Positions 17,421-25,194 of a stretch of 33,704 nucleotides of DNA are shown in pieces; within the stretch, counting starts at the first letter, position 1, and each line of letters starts with the position of its first letter. The notes below the pieces were generated by a model that was not told the DNA's origin, did not search any database, and saw only the letters and a list, made by a program, of their open reading frames with translations. The stretch comes from Candidatus Aminicenantes bacterium (GTDB lineage Bacteria > Acidobacteriota > Aminicenantia > UBA2199). The translations under genes were made by a program, and so were the position numbers. The stretch spans positions 1-33,704 of the forward strand of contig DSBM01000050.1 of assembly GCA_011049425.1 (NCBI GenBank). The letters run 5' to 3'.

Positions 17421-17450
17421 TATTTAATGAGAGATTTTTCCATTTGTCAA
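17421..17450 (-). promoter_or_regulatory. Promoter of the F0 (atp) operon
   Basis: Minus strand TTGACA (17450-17445), an 18-base spacer and TAAATA (17426-17421). The consensus -35 box contains the TGA stop of the upstream UvrA-like gene (17449-17447). The leader before the ATG at 17390 would be about 25 bases. Confidence 0.7.
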
Positions 17451-20095
17451 GGCCGGCACTTTTTTTTTAATTCTTTCGCGGTCAAGGTCTTTCCATGGCG
17501 CAGGAAATCCGCAACCGTTCCACAAAAAAGCAGCCTTCCACCCCGATCGCCACCACCGGGCCCCAGTTCAATTACCCAATCACTGCCGGCCAGCAATTCC
17601 AGGTTGTGATCGGCAACCACGACCGTGTGTCCCGAAGCGGTCAAGCGACGGAAAAGATCTTTGACGCGGTCCAGGTCCACGGGATGAAGGCCGTAGGAGG
17701 GATCATCCACCAGGTACAGCGTGGATGCCTTGCCGTTGACCAAGTGGCGACAGAGCTTGAGGCGTTGACGTTCACCCTCCGACATGGCGCCCAGGGTCTG
17801 GGAAAGACGCAGGTAACCGAGACCGTTTTCCTCAATGGCCGCCAGAATGCGGGCCACTTGCGGCAATGGTTCCTTTAGCAGGCGCCAAGCCTCTGATGCC
17901 GTCATTTCCAACCATTCGACCAGGTTCTTTCCCTGGACGCGGATTTTGATTGATTCGGCTCTCAGCCCTGTGCCATTGCAATCTTCGCAGGGAATCCAGA
18001 CTGAGGGCAGGAACTGCATCTCCAATTCCCGGCCGCCCTTGCCCCTGCAGACCGGACAGCGTCCCCGGGGCGAGTTGGCGGAGAAATGGCCGGGTGTATA
18101 ACCCAGTCGACGGGCCGCCGGCTGATCCGCGAACCATTCACGGATGGGTGCATGGATACGCATAAAGGCCGCCACTCCGGACCGCGACACCGCGGCATTC
18201 ACCTCCGGATCTACATATTCCACGGAGGCAATGCCCTGCGGACACGGTCGGGCTGCCAATTCATCCCGCAAAAGAGATGTCTTTCCGGCTCCGCTGACCC
18301 CGCATACCATGGTCACGCCCGCGCGGGGCAGCCCGACATCAAATCCAGTAAGGTTGTGCGCCGACAAGCTCCGGAATTCCAGCATGGAAGCGGGGAGAGT
18401 GGAGACAGCTCCGATAGTGATCGGGCAATGGATGCGTTGCTGGGTAAGGGTTTGCTTTCCCTGCAAAAAATCGGCCCGGGTGTCGGAAAATACCACTTTA
18501 CCACCGGCATTCCCGGCTCCGGGACCCAACTCCACCACCCAATCCGCGGCGCGAATCAAGTCGGGGTCATGCTCGATCATGATCACCGTGTTTCCCGCCT
18601 CACGCAATCCCCTGAGAAACTCCATGATGTGTCGGCTTTCCGCGGGGTGGATATCAGCTGAAGGTTGATCCAGTATCAAAAGCGAATCGGACAGAGTCGA
18701 CCCCAGGATAAACGCCATGTTCAACCGTTGATGCTCGCCCCGGGAAAGTGTAAACGTCAAACGGTCCAGGTTGAGGTATCCCAGACCGCTGCGATCCAGG
18801 TATTGCAGCCGGGCCTGGATCTCCCGGAACACATCCGGTGTAACTCTTCCCGCAAGTTCACCCGCATCCAGGTCGGCAAAAAACCGGTGCACGTCCCGGA
18901 TGGTCATGGCGCTCAGCTCCGCAATATTGAGACCTTTCACCCGGTAGGCCAAAGCTTCCGCGTTCAGGCGCGCGCCGCGACATTCCGGGCATGGCTGATA
19001 GGAAGAATAGCGACTCAGGAGCACGCGTGCTTGAACTTTGTACTGCTTGCCCTTTAAGAAGCGGAACCATTCGCTTACTCCGGGGAAACCGGGGCCGCCG
19101 TCCAGAATGAAATCCTGGTGGGTTAGGGATAAATCTCTGAACGGTTGGTGGATATCAATTCCCGATTTCTTTGCGGCGGCCAGCAGTTGTTCGCGGAACG
19201 AGCGGTGAATGGCCGTGCGCAAGGGCCGTATCGCTCCTGCGGCGAGCGATAAAGCCGGGCTGAATATCTTTTTCGGGTCCGGTTCCTGCAGGTCGCCATA
19301 TCCCCGGCAACGGGGACAAGCGCCCCTAGCGCTGTTAAAAGAAAACAGGTTTTCATCGGGATCGGTATAAGTCACATTGCAATGAGGGCATCGCAAACTG
19401 GCGGCATAGAAAACAGTTTGACCATTGCGCAGAATCACCACCCGTTCCCGGCCCAGGGCAATGGCGCGATCAACGGCTTCAAACAAACGTGACCACTGGT
19501 CTTGGCTGACCGTTACCTCATCCAACACCACCTGGATATTCCGGCCGGCAAGGGCTCCCCGTAATCTTTGCGGCTTGCCGTTATGCAGGTAATGGTAATA
19601 TCCCCGGTTTACCAGGAAAGGGATTTCTCCACGGTAATCAAAAGCAACCAGAACATCTCCGCCGGGATGGGCAAGCAGGTCCGCCACGATTTCATCCAGG
19701 CTCCATCGTCTAAGCCGGCGGCCGCAACCCGGGCAGAAAAAATGCCCGCCCCGGGCATACAGGATGCGGAAGTAATCATACAAATCGATACTGGTGGCCA
19801 CAGTCGAACGCGGATTTCGCGCCGGTCGCCGGTGACGAACAGCCACGGCGGGAGGCAACCCGGTGACACCATCCAGGGGAGGTTTCTCTATCTTGTCCAG
19901 GAATTGACGGATATAGGGGGAAATCGACTCCATATAGCGGGAATACCCCTCTGCGTACAAAGTATGAAAAGCCAGCGAAGATTTACCGGCTCCCGAAACG
20001 CCGACTAAGGCGATAATCTTTCCCCTGGGAATATCCAGGCCGATATGTTTCAGGTTATGGGTTCGGACACCCCGAACGCGGATCCAGTCAGTCAC
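17447..20095 (-). CDS. Divergent UvrA paralogue with altered ATPase motifs
   Basis: 882 residues, UvrA-like throughout but shorter than the usual 940 or so. Zinc modules are intact (C121/C124 with C236/C239; C260/C263 with C369/C372; C680/C683 with C703/C706) and both Walker A motifs remain (GVSGAGKS at 32-39, GVSGAGKT at 599-606). Other ATPase residues deviate in both halves: signatures are LSRGE (450-454) and MSEGE (771-775) instead of LSGGE, the Walker B glutamate is Gln477 in one and Asp798 in the other, and the IDQK and DQSPIGRTPRSN Q-loop blocks are changed. H-loop histidines (509, 830) are kept. Canonical UvrA recognises bulky DNA lesions and loads UvrB; this copy probably binds DNA but hydrolyses ATP slowly or differently. 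GTG start, 33 bases after eno, without a clear ribosome binding site. Confidence 0.85.
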   Translation of the reverse strand: MTDWIRVRGVRTHNLKHIGLDIPRGKIIALVGVSGAGKSSLAFHTLYAEGYSRYMESISPYIRQFLDKIEKPPLDGVTGLPPAVAVRHRRPARNPRSTVATSIDLYDYFRILYARGGHFFCPGCGRRLRRWSLDEIVADLLAHPGGDVLVAFDYRGEIPFLVNRGYYHYLHNGKPQRLRGALAGRNIQVVLDEVTVSQDQWSRLFEAVDRAIALGRERVVILRNGQTVFYAASLRCPHCNVTYTDPDENLFSFNSARGACPRCRGYGDLQEPDPKKIFSPALSLAAGAIRPLRTAIHRSFREQLLAAAKKSGIDIHQPFRDLSLTHQDFILDGGPGFPGVSEWFRFLKGKQYKVQARVLLSRYSSYQPCPECRGARLNAEALAYRVKGLNIAELSAMTIRDVHRFFADLDAGELAGRVTPDVFREIQARLQYLDRSGLGYLNLDRLTFTLSRGEHQRLNMAFILGSTLSDSLLILDQPSADIHPAESRHIMEFLRGLREAGNTVIMIEHDPDLIRAADWVVELGPGAGNAGGKVVFSDTRADFLQGKQTLTQQRIHCPITIGAVSTLPASMLEFRSLSAHNLTGFDVGLPRAGVTMVCGVSGAGKTSLLRDELAARPCPQGIASVEYVDPEVNAAVSRSGVAAFMRIHAPIREWFADQPAARRLGYTPGHFSANSPRGRCPVCRGKGGRELEMQFLPSVWIPCEDCNGTGLRAESIKIRVQGKNLVEWLEMTASEAWRLLKEPLPQVARILAAIEENGLGYLRLSQTLGAMSEGERQRLKLCRHLVNGKASTLYLVDDPSYGLHPVDLDRVKDLFRRLTASGHTVVVADHNLELLAGSDWVIELGPGGGDRGGRLLFCGTVADFLRHGKTLTAKELKKKCRP

Positions 20096-20128: not shown

Positions 20129-21784
<1,656 letters not shown>

Positions 21785-21788
<4 letters not shown>

Positions 21789-22156
21789 GATCGACCTCCT
21801 TTCGTTTTTCGAACCATGTTCCAGCCAAAGCGGATGGCCGGGATGAAGGCCATGACGCCGGCGGATTTCCGCAGGACATTCCGGTTGACAAGGTTGAGTG
21901 CCCTGGTGATGACGTGAAGCGATTTTTTCGAGGACTCAATGATCTCGCCCACTTTCTCTGCCTCTCCATCCACGCGTTCAACCACACCCTGCAATTTTAT
22001 CGTCAGGTCCCGCGCTTCTTCAGAGGTTTTCGCCAGGTCGGCCATGAGCAAACGCAACTGGTTGATGGCCGGAACCAAGGTCAGTACCAAAAGCAGAAAA
22101 CCCACCGAAACCAGCAGGGCGACAATAAACACGACAATCGTTGTAGCTGTTCCCAT
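21785..22156 (-). CDS. DUF948-like membrane-anchored coiled-coil protein
   Basis: 123 residues: one N-terminal membrane helix (TTIVVFIVALLVSVGFLLLV), then a long amphipathic helix with LAKTSEEARDLTIKLQGVVERV that should form a coiled coil in the cytoplasm or periplasm, and a basic C-terminus (RKTKGGRS). This matches the DUF948 family often found next to YtxH. It is the first gene of its operon, about 20 bases after a consensus promoter, with GGAG upstream of the ATG. Confidence 0.75.
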
Positions 22157-22232: not shown

Positions 22233-23111
22233 TTACTCGTTTTTCAATCCATCAACCAGGCGGCGTAATGCTTCCAGGTCCGGCAGGTCCAGGTTGACTT
22301 GAATGCCCGGGGGCTCAAAAAAGGGCGCATGGCGGACGCTGATTTCCTTCGGTAATTCAAGCCTTTCCACTCTTTCGCGCCATTCCTTTTCGGCTGCAGT
22401 GACCATGGGGAACCTCAACGCATGCAACCGGTTGAGTACCGCTTCAGCCGGGCGTTGATGGAGAAGGGCCGTGTGCACCTCAGCTCGACGCAAGACATCG
22501 TCAACTTCGCAACCGTCCCGTGCCAGGATCTCTCTTACCATGGCCGCCAGGCGCAACCCCTGGGATGCGGTGAAATGGACCGTTTCCATCAGGCCCAGCA
22601 GGGAGCGCCGTGAATCCACCGCGAGGGCGGCCAGCTCGCGGGCCGCCGGCAACGCGATACGCCCCTCGCGCAACAAAATCGCAAAATCCCGGCCCAGCAG
22701 GGTGGGCAATTGCGCAATCAGGCCCGGATTCAGGGGGATATCCAACCCGGTACGGCGGCGGATCTCTTCCGGCTTCGCCTCTTCCAGGGCCAGGGAGGCG
22801 AAATACAGTTTTTCATACAGGTTGACGGAAAAGACCGCCTGGAGCAGGTTGAAACCCAGATAAAGGCTTTCCAACGGCGAAAGCGCCACCTGCATGATCT
22901 CTGCCGTGACCACTTTTCGTTGTTTCAGGAATTCCAGCCGACACTCTCCCCAGATCACTCTTTGCTTTGAGTCGACGATGATCAACGGCATACCCGGGAA
23001 TCGCCTGTCCAGCGACTCTCCCCGGTTTTCCATGCTGGAGGGCCGACTCAAACGGCGATGGGGATCGATTTTCAAGGAATCGAGCGGCAAGGTACAAATG
23101 GTCCCGATCAC
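22233..23111 (-). CDS. Degenerate ParB-like domain protein
   Basis: 292 residues from a GTG at 23111 that overlaps the kinase stop as GTGA. The N-terminal half resembles a ParB N-terminal domain: TLPLDSLKIDP, then PLIIVD, then GECRLEFLK (55-63), where canonical ParB has the GERRxRA box, followed by a LSPLESLYLGFNLL segment. The centre (GRDFAILLREGRIALPAARELAAL) matches the end of ParB's central HTH region, with much divergence. ParB proteins are CTPases that slide on DNA, and the GERR arginines contact CTP; here only one arginine remains. It may be a DNA-binding regulator or a repurposed nucleotide-binding protein. Its place behind a sugar kinase and nucleotidyltransferase is unusual. A longer frame upstream is antisense-like and rejected. 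Confidence 0.65.
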   Translation of the reverse strand: MIGTICTLPLDSLKIDPHRRLSRPSSMENRGESLDRRFPGMPLIIVDSKQRVIWGECRLEFLKQRKVVTAEIMQVALSPLESLYLGFNLLQAVFSVNLYEKLYFASLALEEAKPEEIRRRTGLDIPLNPGLIAQLPTLLGRDFAILLREGRIALPAARELAALAVDSRRSLLGLMETVHFTASQGLRLAAMVREILARDGCEVDDVLRRAEVHTALLHQRPAEAVLNRLHALRFPMVTAAEKEWRERVERLELPKEISVRHAPFFEPPGIQVNLDLPDLEALRRLVDGLKNE

Positions 23112-24208
23112 CGTATTTCCCCAGTCTTGGCGCCTTTTTCTGCACTGACCCTCAGGCCCGGACCGATGTTGATGGCCATTGCCCTTCCACCGGCCCGGCG
23201 AATCGCCTCCATAACCGCCTCGCGGTTTCCGGGACACCAGGCGAACATGCATCCCCCTTCTCCGGAGCCGTTGATCTTGGCCGCCAGGGCTCCGGCTTTG
23301 AGGGCGGCATCGATCATGGCGTTTAAACGCGGAGTGGATACCCGCAGTTTATCTCGCAGGATCTGCTGCAGCCGGATCATGAGGCCGGCCAGAGCAACGT
23401 TGTCCGGCTGGGATGAACGCAGCACCTGCCTTGCCCTGCGGGTGATCCAGTGGTTCTCTACCGCAGCCTGGGCATATTCCCGCCATTCCCGGTCCACGGC
23501 TTTCAGAAAAACCTCTGCATGATCCGGAGTCAGTTCCCGGCGGTCTCGAATATGCGCCGCTTTCATCAACTGACGCAACCCCTCATTCTGACCGCGATTC
23601 AATCGGGCCAGTGTCTTTAACGTATCCTTGGGTTCCCCGGAATCTCCGAGAACAAACTCTTTCATGCAAGCCGGCAAAGATTCACAATTCACCCGGGGCT
23701 CGCACTCCAGATAGATTACGCCTCCACAAGCGGAAGCGTAATGGTCCATGCGCCCGCCGTTCTCGCCGAATTCCTTTACTTCGGCGGTATACGCCAGTTC
23801 CGCCACCCGCATGGGGTCATCGAGAAAGGCGGACCGCCCTGCCGCAGCCAGCAGGAAGCCGGTCCAGGCAACCACCAGTGCGGAAGAAGACGAAGCCCCC
23901 GCCTGGATGGGTATGTTTCCCCGCACCGCGGCGTGCACCCCCGCGGGTCCCAGCAGACCCCGGCGCGCCAATACCCGGGCACAACTGCGCAGGTAATCTC
24001 TGGAACGGCTATAATGTTCCGGAGGCAGGTTGAACTCCTCCCGGGAACCGATGTCCGGGAGTTCGACCAACGCCCTTGGCGGGCCCTTCACATCTCCCTG
24101 GATCACGATGGTACGGTCAATTGCGGCTGCGATAACCGGGAAGCCGAGATAATCCTGGTGTTCGCCGAACAGGCAGATTCGTCCGGGAGCCTCGGCGGTA
24201 ATGGTCAT
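23108..24208 (-). CDS. GHMP-family sugar kinase (galactokinase-like)
   Basis: 366 residues with the three GHMP kinase motifs: substrate loop GRICLFGEHQDYLG (9-22), ATP loop GASSSSAL (104-111) and the C-terminal NGSGEGGC (313-320). The galactokinase-type catalytic aspartate is present as GRMDHY (Asp155), in place of GIMDQ. The GEHxDY block puts it with sugar 1-kinases (galactokinase, galacturonokinase, arabinokinase, fucokinase) rather than mevalonate or homoserine kinases; the sugar is not determinable. It overlaps the nucleotidyltransferase upstream (ATGA) and the ParB-like gene downstream (GTGA). Kinase plus nucleotidyltransferase suggests that a free sugar is turned into a sugar 1-phosphate and then into an NDP-sugar. 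Confidence 0.88.
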   Translation of the reverse strand: MTITAEAPGRICLFGEHQDYLGFPVIAAAIDRTIVIQGDVKGPPRALVELPDIGSREEFNLPPEHYSRSRDYLRSCARVLARRGLLGPAGVHAAVRGNIPIQAGASSSSALVVAWTGFLLAAAGRSAFLDDPMRVAELAYTAEVKEFGENGGRMDHYASACGGVIYLECEPRVNCESLPACMKEFVLGDSGEPKDTLKTLARLNRGQNEGLRQLMKAAHIRDRRELTPDHAEVFLKAVDREWREYAQAAVENHWITRRARQVLRSSQPDNVALAGLMIRLQQILRDKLRVSTPRLNAMIDAALKAGALAAKINGSGEGGCMFAWCPGNREAVMEAIRRAGGRAMAINIGPGLRVSAEKGAKTGEIR

Positions 24209-25194
24209 TCAGTCCGGGATCCGTTGACCGCGCCGCCGCAGGGTGGAACCACTCCACCATCCGGGATGGTATCGTTGCGCAGATACGCGAACGGCCCTAT
24301 CCGGCAATCCCGGCCGATACGGGTCCCGGCACCGATATAAGTGCAGGGGAACAACACCGTATCCTCCCCGATCGACACATCACATTCCACAGTGGTGCTT
24401 CCGGGATCCATCACCGTTACCCCGCCTTCTTCAGCCAGGCGCCGCAGTTTTCGCAGGTTGAACTCGCGTTCCGCCGCCTGCAGATCCCAGCGGTTGTTGA
24501 TCCCCAGGGCGACCCGATAGTCCTGCGCACATAGCGCGTGAACCCGGTGACTTTGATCATGCAGTATCTCAATGATATCGGTCAGGTAGTATTCGTTTTT
24601 GCGATTGCGGTTTGTAATGCGGGAAAGAAGAGGCCAAACCGTGGGCGTGTGAAAAAGGTAAATCGAGGAATTGACTTCGCGCAATTTCAACTGATCCGGA
24701 GTGGCGTCCAGTTCTTCCACCACCGCCGCCACACCCCCCCCCGGAGTGCGAACCACGCGCCCATACGGTGGTGGGGTATGGGGAAAAAGGGCCGACAGGA
24801 ACGTACATGGGACCGGATCCGCGCTATGGCTTTCACACAGGCGCCGGATCTCTCCGGCTGTAATCCATGGGTTGTCGCCCACGGTCACCAGCAGTTCTCC
24901 GGAAAAATCCGCCACCTGATCCGCGGCGCTGAGCAGGGCGTGGGCGGTACCCATAGGCGGTGATTGAACAGCGTAACGCACGGGCCGGCCTGAAACCGCT
25001 TCCTGCACCTCTTCCAGGTTTTCCCCGCAGACCAGAACCGTGTTTTCCGCGGGAATGCCGGCAGCGGCCATGTTTTCCAACAGCCAGAGAATGAGCGGGC
25101 GCCCCAGCAGGGGGTGAACCACTTTGCTGCGGCGGGAACGCATGCGGCGGGATTGGCCCGCCGCCAGGACAACAGCAGCGATGGAACCCTTCAT
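24205..25194 (-). CDS. GlmU-type nucleotidyltransferase lacking the acetyltransferase half
   Basis: 329 residues. The N-terminal 230 match the GlmU uridylyltransferase domain: LAAGQSRRM (10-18), Lys24 in SKVVHPLLGRP, QSPPMGTAHALL, a VGD metal site where GlmU has YGD, PYGRVVR, VVEELDA and NEYYLTDIIEIL, then GINNRWDLQAAE. A short left-handed beta helix follows (GVTVMDPGSTTVECDVSIGEDTVLFPCTYIG). The protein ends about where GlmU reaches residue 320, before the acetyltransferase catalytic residues (Lys351, His363, Tyr366 and Asn377 in E. coli numbering). It should therefore join a sugar 1-phosphate with UTP or another NTP but not acetylate. The downstream sugar kinase would supply the sugar 1-phosphate. 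No frameshift is evident, so I read this as a natural short form. Confidence 0.85.
   Translation of the reverse strand: MKGSIAAVVLAAGQSRRMRSRRSKVVHPLLGRPLILWLLENMAAAGIPAENTVLVCGENLEEVQEAVSGRPVRYAVQSPPMGTAHALLSAADQVADFSGELLVTVGDNPWITAGEIRRLCESHSADPVPCTFLSALFPHTPPPYGRVVRTPGGGVAAVVEELDATPDQLKLREVNSSIYLFHTPTVWPLLSRITNRNRKNEYYLTDIIEILHDQSHRVHALCAQDYRVALGINNRWDLQAAEREFNLRKLRRLAEEGGVTVMDPGSTTVECDVSIGEDTVLFPCTYIGAGTRIGRDCRIGPFAYLRNDTIPDGGVVPPCGGAVNGSRTE

Follow-up and report, generated by a model that had tools for sequence, protein, structure and literature searches.

A split GlmU and a probable N-acetylhexosamine 1-kinase of the GHMP fold in Aminicenantia

Three overlapping genes of a Candidatus Aminicenantes bacterium raise the question whether they form one pathway for a nucleotide sugar and which sugar it would serve. 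They are located on contig DSBM01000050.1 of assembly GCA_011049425.1, whose 33,704 nucleotides were analysed here as a whole and are called the window in the following; the host genome is a 2.6-Mb MAG with 96% completeness. The original prediction, made from the sequence of the window, described the genes as an operon under one promoter that encodes a short GlmU without acetyltransferase half (here NT), a sugar 1-kinase and a ParB-like protein (here PB), and suggested a salvage route for an NDP-sugar with PB as a possible nucleotide sensor or regulator. The overlaps are real, as each adjoining pair of genes shares 4 bases (Table 1). For PB we accept a GTG start at 23111, where its homologues begin; a longer ATG frame reaching up to 23252 was rejected, as it is without homologue support. 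The single promoter is unproven. A sigma70-like match is found at 25229-25201, but three such matches occur against 1.4 expected by chance, and the same strand runs on with DUF948, YtxH and enolase genes from 76 bases downstream of the trio. The trio presumably acts as a transcription unit. Adjoining the enolase gene, the minus strand of the window (17447-20095) encodes an 882-aa UvrA-like protein, shorter than usual UvrA, with two ABC domains as well as the UvrA DNA-binding and interaction domains.

Table 1. Positions of the trio and of related genes. Positions without prefix refer to the window.
Feature	Position	Strand	Remarks
NT, GlmU-type N-acetylglucosamine-1-phosphate uridylyltransferase half	24205..25194	-	329 aa; few hexapeptide repeats, without acetyltransferase half
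GHMP-family sugar 1-kinase, probable N-acetylhexosamine kinase	23108..24208	-	366 aa
PB, ParB-fold protein, CTP motif lost	22233..23111	-	292 aa, GTG start
Overlap of kinase start and NT stop	24205..24208	-	ATGA, 4 bases, read from the sequence
Overlap of PB start and kinase stop	23108..23111	-	GTGA, 4 bases, read from the sequence
DUF948-like gene	21785-22156	-	3' of PB in many relatives, including those lacking NT and kinase
YtxH gene	21447-21788	-	3' of PB in many relatives, including those lacking NT and kinase
Acetyltransferase protein, window genome	C2:18538-19590 (L089:2039-3091)		350 aa
Part of it matching the GlmU profile	C2:18907-19572		profile positions 230-451, 259 bits
TPR protein 5' of the acetyltransferase gene	L089:1530-2042		~170 aa, 4-base overlap
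NagB-kinase fusion, family f5	L090:990-2840		616-617 aa, behind two phosphohexomutase genes
NagB-kinase fusion, family f2	L091:1601-3454		616-617 aa, behind two phosphohexomutase genes

The gene order NT-kinase-PB is not peculiar to this genome, and the original prediction withstands its own refuting condition on this point; recurrence of the contiguous trio also speaks against a chance arrangement. It is intact in at least ten genomes (G000, G001, G003, G007, G008, G010, G014, G015, G018 and G021) from five genera (g1, g3, g7, g8 and g9), all of the single Aminicenantes family f1, and was not seen outside this family. In G004, G009 and G016 the trio is interrupted by contig ends. In the kinase-less G005, PB directly follows NT, and G013 has the NT-kinase pair with PB apart from it. 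Members of genus g6 have no kinase, carry NT at another place, and their PB adjoins genes for an M19 peptidase and a patatin. All these absences are called on incomplete MAGs. PB as such was found in 42 of the 119 relatives searched.

NT comprises NTP_transferase and Hexapep domains and fits best to the GlmU models (TIGR01173/PRK14354, 250-258 bits). The match covers only positions ~2-307 of the 452 in the GlmU profile; the score of 250.6 bits stays below the curated value of 366.85 for TIGR01173, and the acetyltransferase half is not in the same chain. Judged by invariant alignment columns and by alignment to solved GlmUs, NT holds what characterizes the N-terminal domain of GlmU, namely LAAGxxxRM and the equivalents of K25, Q76, GT, D105, E154, N169 and N227. 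In 13 relatives, K24, Q77, G82-T83, D107, G145, E160, N175, Y203, T205 and N233 are invariant; we take their catalytic and sugar-site roles to be those of E. coli GlmU. Since small changes adjoin the sugar site (VNSSI for NTGI, GDNPY for GDVPL), another sugar-1-phosphate is a possible substrate.

A full-length GlmU above cut-off was detected in none of the 34 f1 genomes searched, that of the window included, and in 116 of 149 sampled Acidobacteriota. Nearly all of these 34 genomes carry NT together with a second protein that matches GlmU positions ~230-452. In the window genome, this second protein shows the acetyltransferase-site motifs SHLAY and NYDG in its C-terminal part, and its first ~125 residues contain no Pfam domain. 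GlmU is split here into two proteins encoded at two loci. The acetyltransferase gene is preceded, with overlap, by the gene of a TPR protein, itself a possible partner of the acetyltransferase. Because a gene of equal size and overlap also precedes glmU in families with an intact GlmU, the f1 acetyltransferase probably sits at the old glmU locus, with its first half eroded. Neighbouring families have either a full GlmU behind the TPR gene or an acetyltransferase with an eroded N-terminal half, and families f4 and f8 hold GlmU versions of 437-446 aa whose first half is without a recognisable nucleotidyltransferase domain. Among the latter are L106:1080-2420 and L107:1463-2776, with an intact acetyltransferase half and a nucleotidyltransferase half that is not recognisable; no short GlmU was found in the genomes carrying these two.

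Also encoded in the window genome are GlmS (781 bits, above cut-off) and, with 351 bits and below cut-off, a GlmM-like mutase. The predicted short GlmU stands, but a role restricted to salvage is improbable: together with GlmS, the mutase and the acetyltransferase encoded elsewhere, NT probably serves the essential de novo UDP-GlcNAc pathway. A search for eukaryote-type UDPGP (PF01704) gave no match, in the control genomes likewise, and carries no weight here. NT is very probably the sole UDP-GlcNAc pyrophosphorylase of the cell. A tree of uridylyltransferase domains, rooted by midpoint only, separates the full GlmUs from a clade (100/98) that unites the copies from f1, f2 and f5 with the second copy of G038. 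In G038, a complete GlmU is accompanied by a separate short paralogue that directly adjoins the kinase. On this tree, the NT lineage would be a paralogue of GlmU that has assumed the uridylyltransferase function. In f2 (L208:635-2014, L209 and L211), the short GlmU follows a CheX chemotaxis-phosphatase domain (PF13690, 77 bits) within one fused protein. Half-length GlmU matches, either acetyltransferase-only or uridylyltransferase-only, turn up in other Acidobacteriota families (G170, G191, G248, G201, G182, G190 and G249), and GlmU splitting may thus have happened more than once. The open-access full texts searched yielded no description of a split or monofunctional GlmU, or of GlmU from Aminicenantes.

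The second protein of the trio is a GHMP-type kinase. GHMP_N (PF00288), GHMP_C (PF08544) and GalKase_gal_bdg (PF10509) all score above cut-off, the SSSA loop and the catalytic Asp of the GHMP superfamily are present, and the motif residues APGRICLFGEHQDY and GGxMDHY are kept in 29 relatives. Its AlphaFold model (pLDDT 94.5) has galactokinases as best Foldseek matches (E 9e-26). The solved GalNAc kinase is matched at 1e-27. The kinase scores far below the cut-off of every named NCBIfam equivalog, with 90.9 bits against 226.65 in case of galactokinase (TIGR00131). "Mevalonate kinase", the top-ranking NCBIfam model (113 bits against a cut-off of 403), was rejected, as the galactose-binding signature and the galactokinase fold are stronger. 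Orthologues with 39-53% identity were found by a collection scan in Cytophagales, Ignavibacteria, KSB1, Zixibacteria, Armatimonadota and others. They constitute an unnamed, galactokinase-like clade that is spread over Bacteroidota, Ignavibacteria, KSB1 and further groups.

Outside Aminicenantia, an NTP transferase is encoded on the same strand directly beside the kinase in 37 of 65 loci, mostly at a distance of -3 to +36 bases. This partner mostly belongs to a family of 286-291 aa that is not GlmU, and the kinase is therefore paired with two different transferase lineages. As expected for a salvage pair, the adjacency of kinase and nucleotidyltransferase recurs, namely in Aminicenantia families f1 and f6 and in other phyla. 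Annotated on cluster representatives only, the neighbours outside Aminicenantia include GH109 (23 loci), a UDP-sugar C4-epimerase (15), a NagC-like ROK protein (10) and a NagP-like MFS transporter (7), besides clusters of an SSS symporter, a LacI regulator and SusD. In f2 and f5 a NagB domain (TIGR00502, above cut-off) precedes the kinase in one fused protein, and two GlmM/PMM-like mutases are encoded directly before the fusion. These 616-aa open frames had been considered as NT-kinase fusions and turned out to be NagB-kinase fusions. EF-P, which adjoins the kinase in f4 and f7, was rejected as a meaningful partner. In f5, NT adjoins a genuine galactokinase (TIGR00131, above cut-off). Given the GH109, NagC-like, NagP-like and epimerase neighbours together with the NagB fusion, the kinase is probably an N-acetylhexosamine 1-kinase feeding UDP-HexNAc. 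The predicted pairing of a sugar 1-kinase with a nucleotidyltransferase is thus found well beyond this genome, its substrate class now likely being narrowed to hexosamines. No bacterial HexNAc or GalNAc kinase of the GHMP type was found described in the open-access papers searched.

PB gave no Pfam or NCBIfam match at all, PF02195 and TIGR00180 included, and a homologue from the class level (L046) reaches weak ParB matches of 20-33 bits, below cut-off. Its structure model (pLDDT 87.5) finds ParB, Noc and Spo0J as best Foldseek matches (E 3e-6 to 1e-5, TM 0.26-0.42), which suggests a degenerate ParB fold; the label "ParB-like" is right in terms of the predicted fold. The GERR-type CTP motif is lost, with GECR in the window and G(I/H)D in most f1 members; GW(R/K)(R/K) stands at this place only in the class-level homologues. 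A further ParB-like frame on C141 of the window genome rules out PB as its only ParB. In 12 of 12 examined loci outside f1, other Acidobacteriota included, PB homologues directly precede a radical SAM gene of the DNA-repair-type SPL (spore photoproduct lyase) family, and the adjacency is seen again in f2 and f4. On their other flank, such loci of Acidobacteriota (L046:8925-11017, L192-L200) often encode a nucleoside phosphorylase and a 2-hydroxyacid dehydrogenase. In f1, SPL has moved away from PB; it is found on C79 of the window genome, with 41% identity to the class-level SPL. Within f1, 24 genomes have both PB and SPL, 8 have neither, 2 have SPL only and none has PB only (Fisher p 2.5e-6). 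The association of PB with the kinase is weak (p 0.02), and both p values are inflated by relatedness. In the kinase-less genus g6, PB occurs in 9 of 9 SPL-bearing and in 0 of 7 SPL-less genomes, although the co-loss may be a single event. A description of such a ParB-fold/SPL gene pair was not found in the open-access papers searched.

Taken together, the best-fitting reading, which we consider probable, is that NT and the kinase constitute a kinase-pyrophosphorylase pair making UDP-N-acetylhexosamine, with GlmU split and NT also serving de novo synthesis, and that PB is tied to the SPL-like protein. With ATP as donor, the kinase would phosphorylate O1 of free N-acetylhexosamine (GlcNAc and/or GalNAc); NT would then transfer UMP from UTP onto the HexNAc-1-phosphate. 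On the de novo branch, GlmS and the GlmM-like mutase would provide GlcN-1-P, the hexapeptide acetyltransferase on C2 would acetylate it and NT would then complete UDP-GlcNAc. At the old glmU locus behind the TPR gene, the nucleotidyltransferase half would have shrunk to ~125 residues without motif, the uridylyltransferase job having passed to the GlmU paralogue. The 1-phosphate could also enter catabolism via a mutase and NagB to fructose-6-phosphate, the adjacency of NT being a mere operon convenience. The NagB-kinase fusion behind two mutases in f2 and f5 fits such a route, as does the retention of NT where genus g6 has lost the kinase; we nevertheless judge it unlikely, since neither NagB nor a mutase adjoins the kinase in f1 and the repeated pairing of the kinase clade with nucleotidyltransferases of two lineages argues for a nucleotide sugar as destination. 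Quite unlikely is salvage of galactose, in which the kinase would be a divergent galactokinase and NT would work like the UDP-sugar pyrophosphorylases, as a UDP-galactose/UDP-glucose pyrophosphorylase. The sugar-binding motif PF10509 is of the galactokinase type, the best Foldseek matches are galactokinases with galactose, and the true galactokinase beside NT in f5 would suit UDP-Gal as well. The kinase itself falls well short of the galactokinase cut-off, its neighbours elsewhere are hexosamine genes and the NagB fusion, and NT is by far nearest to GlmU and the sole one in the genome.

As to PB, its neighbours and its presence follow SPL and not the sugar genes, so it is most likely an SPL partner that became a passenger in the sugar operon through a lineage-specific gene arrangement. 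We regard it as very unlikely that PB genuinely belongs to the system as its third component, acting on the NT-kinase pair as a nucleotide-binding regulator or as a scaffold with ParB fold. The 4-base overlap, the third position kept in five genera and the direct succession of NT and PB in the kinase-less G005 speak for it, and some local role of PB is conceivable on account of its conserved place. The proposed nucleotide sensing is at odds with the loss of the CTP motif in f1, and the pairing with SPL outside f1, the persistence of PB in g6 without kinase and away from NT, and the far stronger association with SPL than with the kinase in f1 all point to the SPL-like radical SAM protein instead.

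Compared with GlmU (TIGR01173), all uridylyltransferase motifs are present in NT and the acetyltransferase motifs in the C2 protein; unlike it, both proteins are under the family cut-off, and NT belongs to a paralogue clade, so that the split is more than a glmU locus broken in two. AmgK/MurU and Fkp couple a sugar 1-kinase to a nucleotidyltransferase for NDP-sugar salvage. The zebrafish glucuronokinase-pyrophosphorylase follows the same logic (PMC3938481). The pair presented here resembles these systems in its salvage logic and differs from them in the lineages of kinase and transferase as well as in the sugars. NahK of Bifidobacterium and BT4240 of Bacteroides thetaiotaomicron, N-acetylhexosamine and GalNAc 1-kinases, respectively (PMC11992087, PMC6264712), catalyze the reaction proposed for our kinase. 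BT4240 works with the GH109 alpha-N-acetylgalactosaminidase (PMC11992087), and GH109 is likewise found near loci of the present clade. Both enzymes are APH-family proteins (PF01636) as opposed to the GHMP fold, so the present clade would be analogous and not homologous to BT4240. The GHMP fold and the sugar-site motif are shared with GALK1 and with human GALK2, a GalNAc kinase; the identity to GALK1 is 22-24%, and the kinase stays below all galactokinase cut-offs in a bacterial clade of its own. From the ParB/Spo0J/Noc CTPases, whose fold is predicted for PB, PB differs by the missing CTP motif, and it is separate from the ParB-like gene on C141.

GlmU, an enzyme of cell-wall sugar synthesis, is essential and an antibacterial target, and most bacteria have it as one bifunctional chain. 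Its occurrence as two independent proteins in a lineage indicates that the fusion is dispensable and shows how GlmU can come apart. In a wider reading, for and against which we see the balance as even, a paralogue would have taken on the essential uridylyltransferase role in three Aminicenantia families, a fourth family having a relative of this paralogue in a salvage operon with a GHMP hexosamine kinase, the old GlmU would be left with acetylation only, and the kinase would found an undescribed bacterial family of GHMP N-acetylhexosamine 1-kinases that lead scavenged amino sugar to UDP-GlcNAc. The annotation oddities "truncated GlmU", "galactokinase" and "mevalonate kinase" in Aminicenantes genomes find an explanation, and the ParB-fold/SPL gene pair is brought to notice. 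If true, the GHMP hexosamine 1-kinase would mean that bacteria accomplish the NahK reaction in a second way, with an enzyme of unrelated structure, and it would give a function to a kinase clade that is present in many Bacteroidota.
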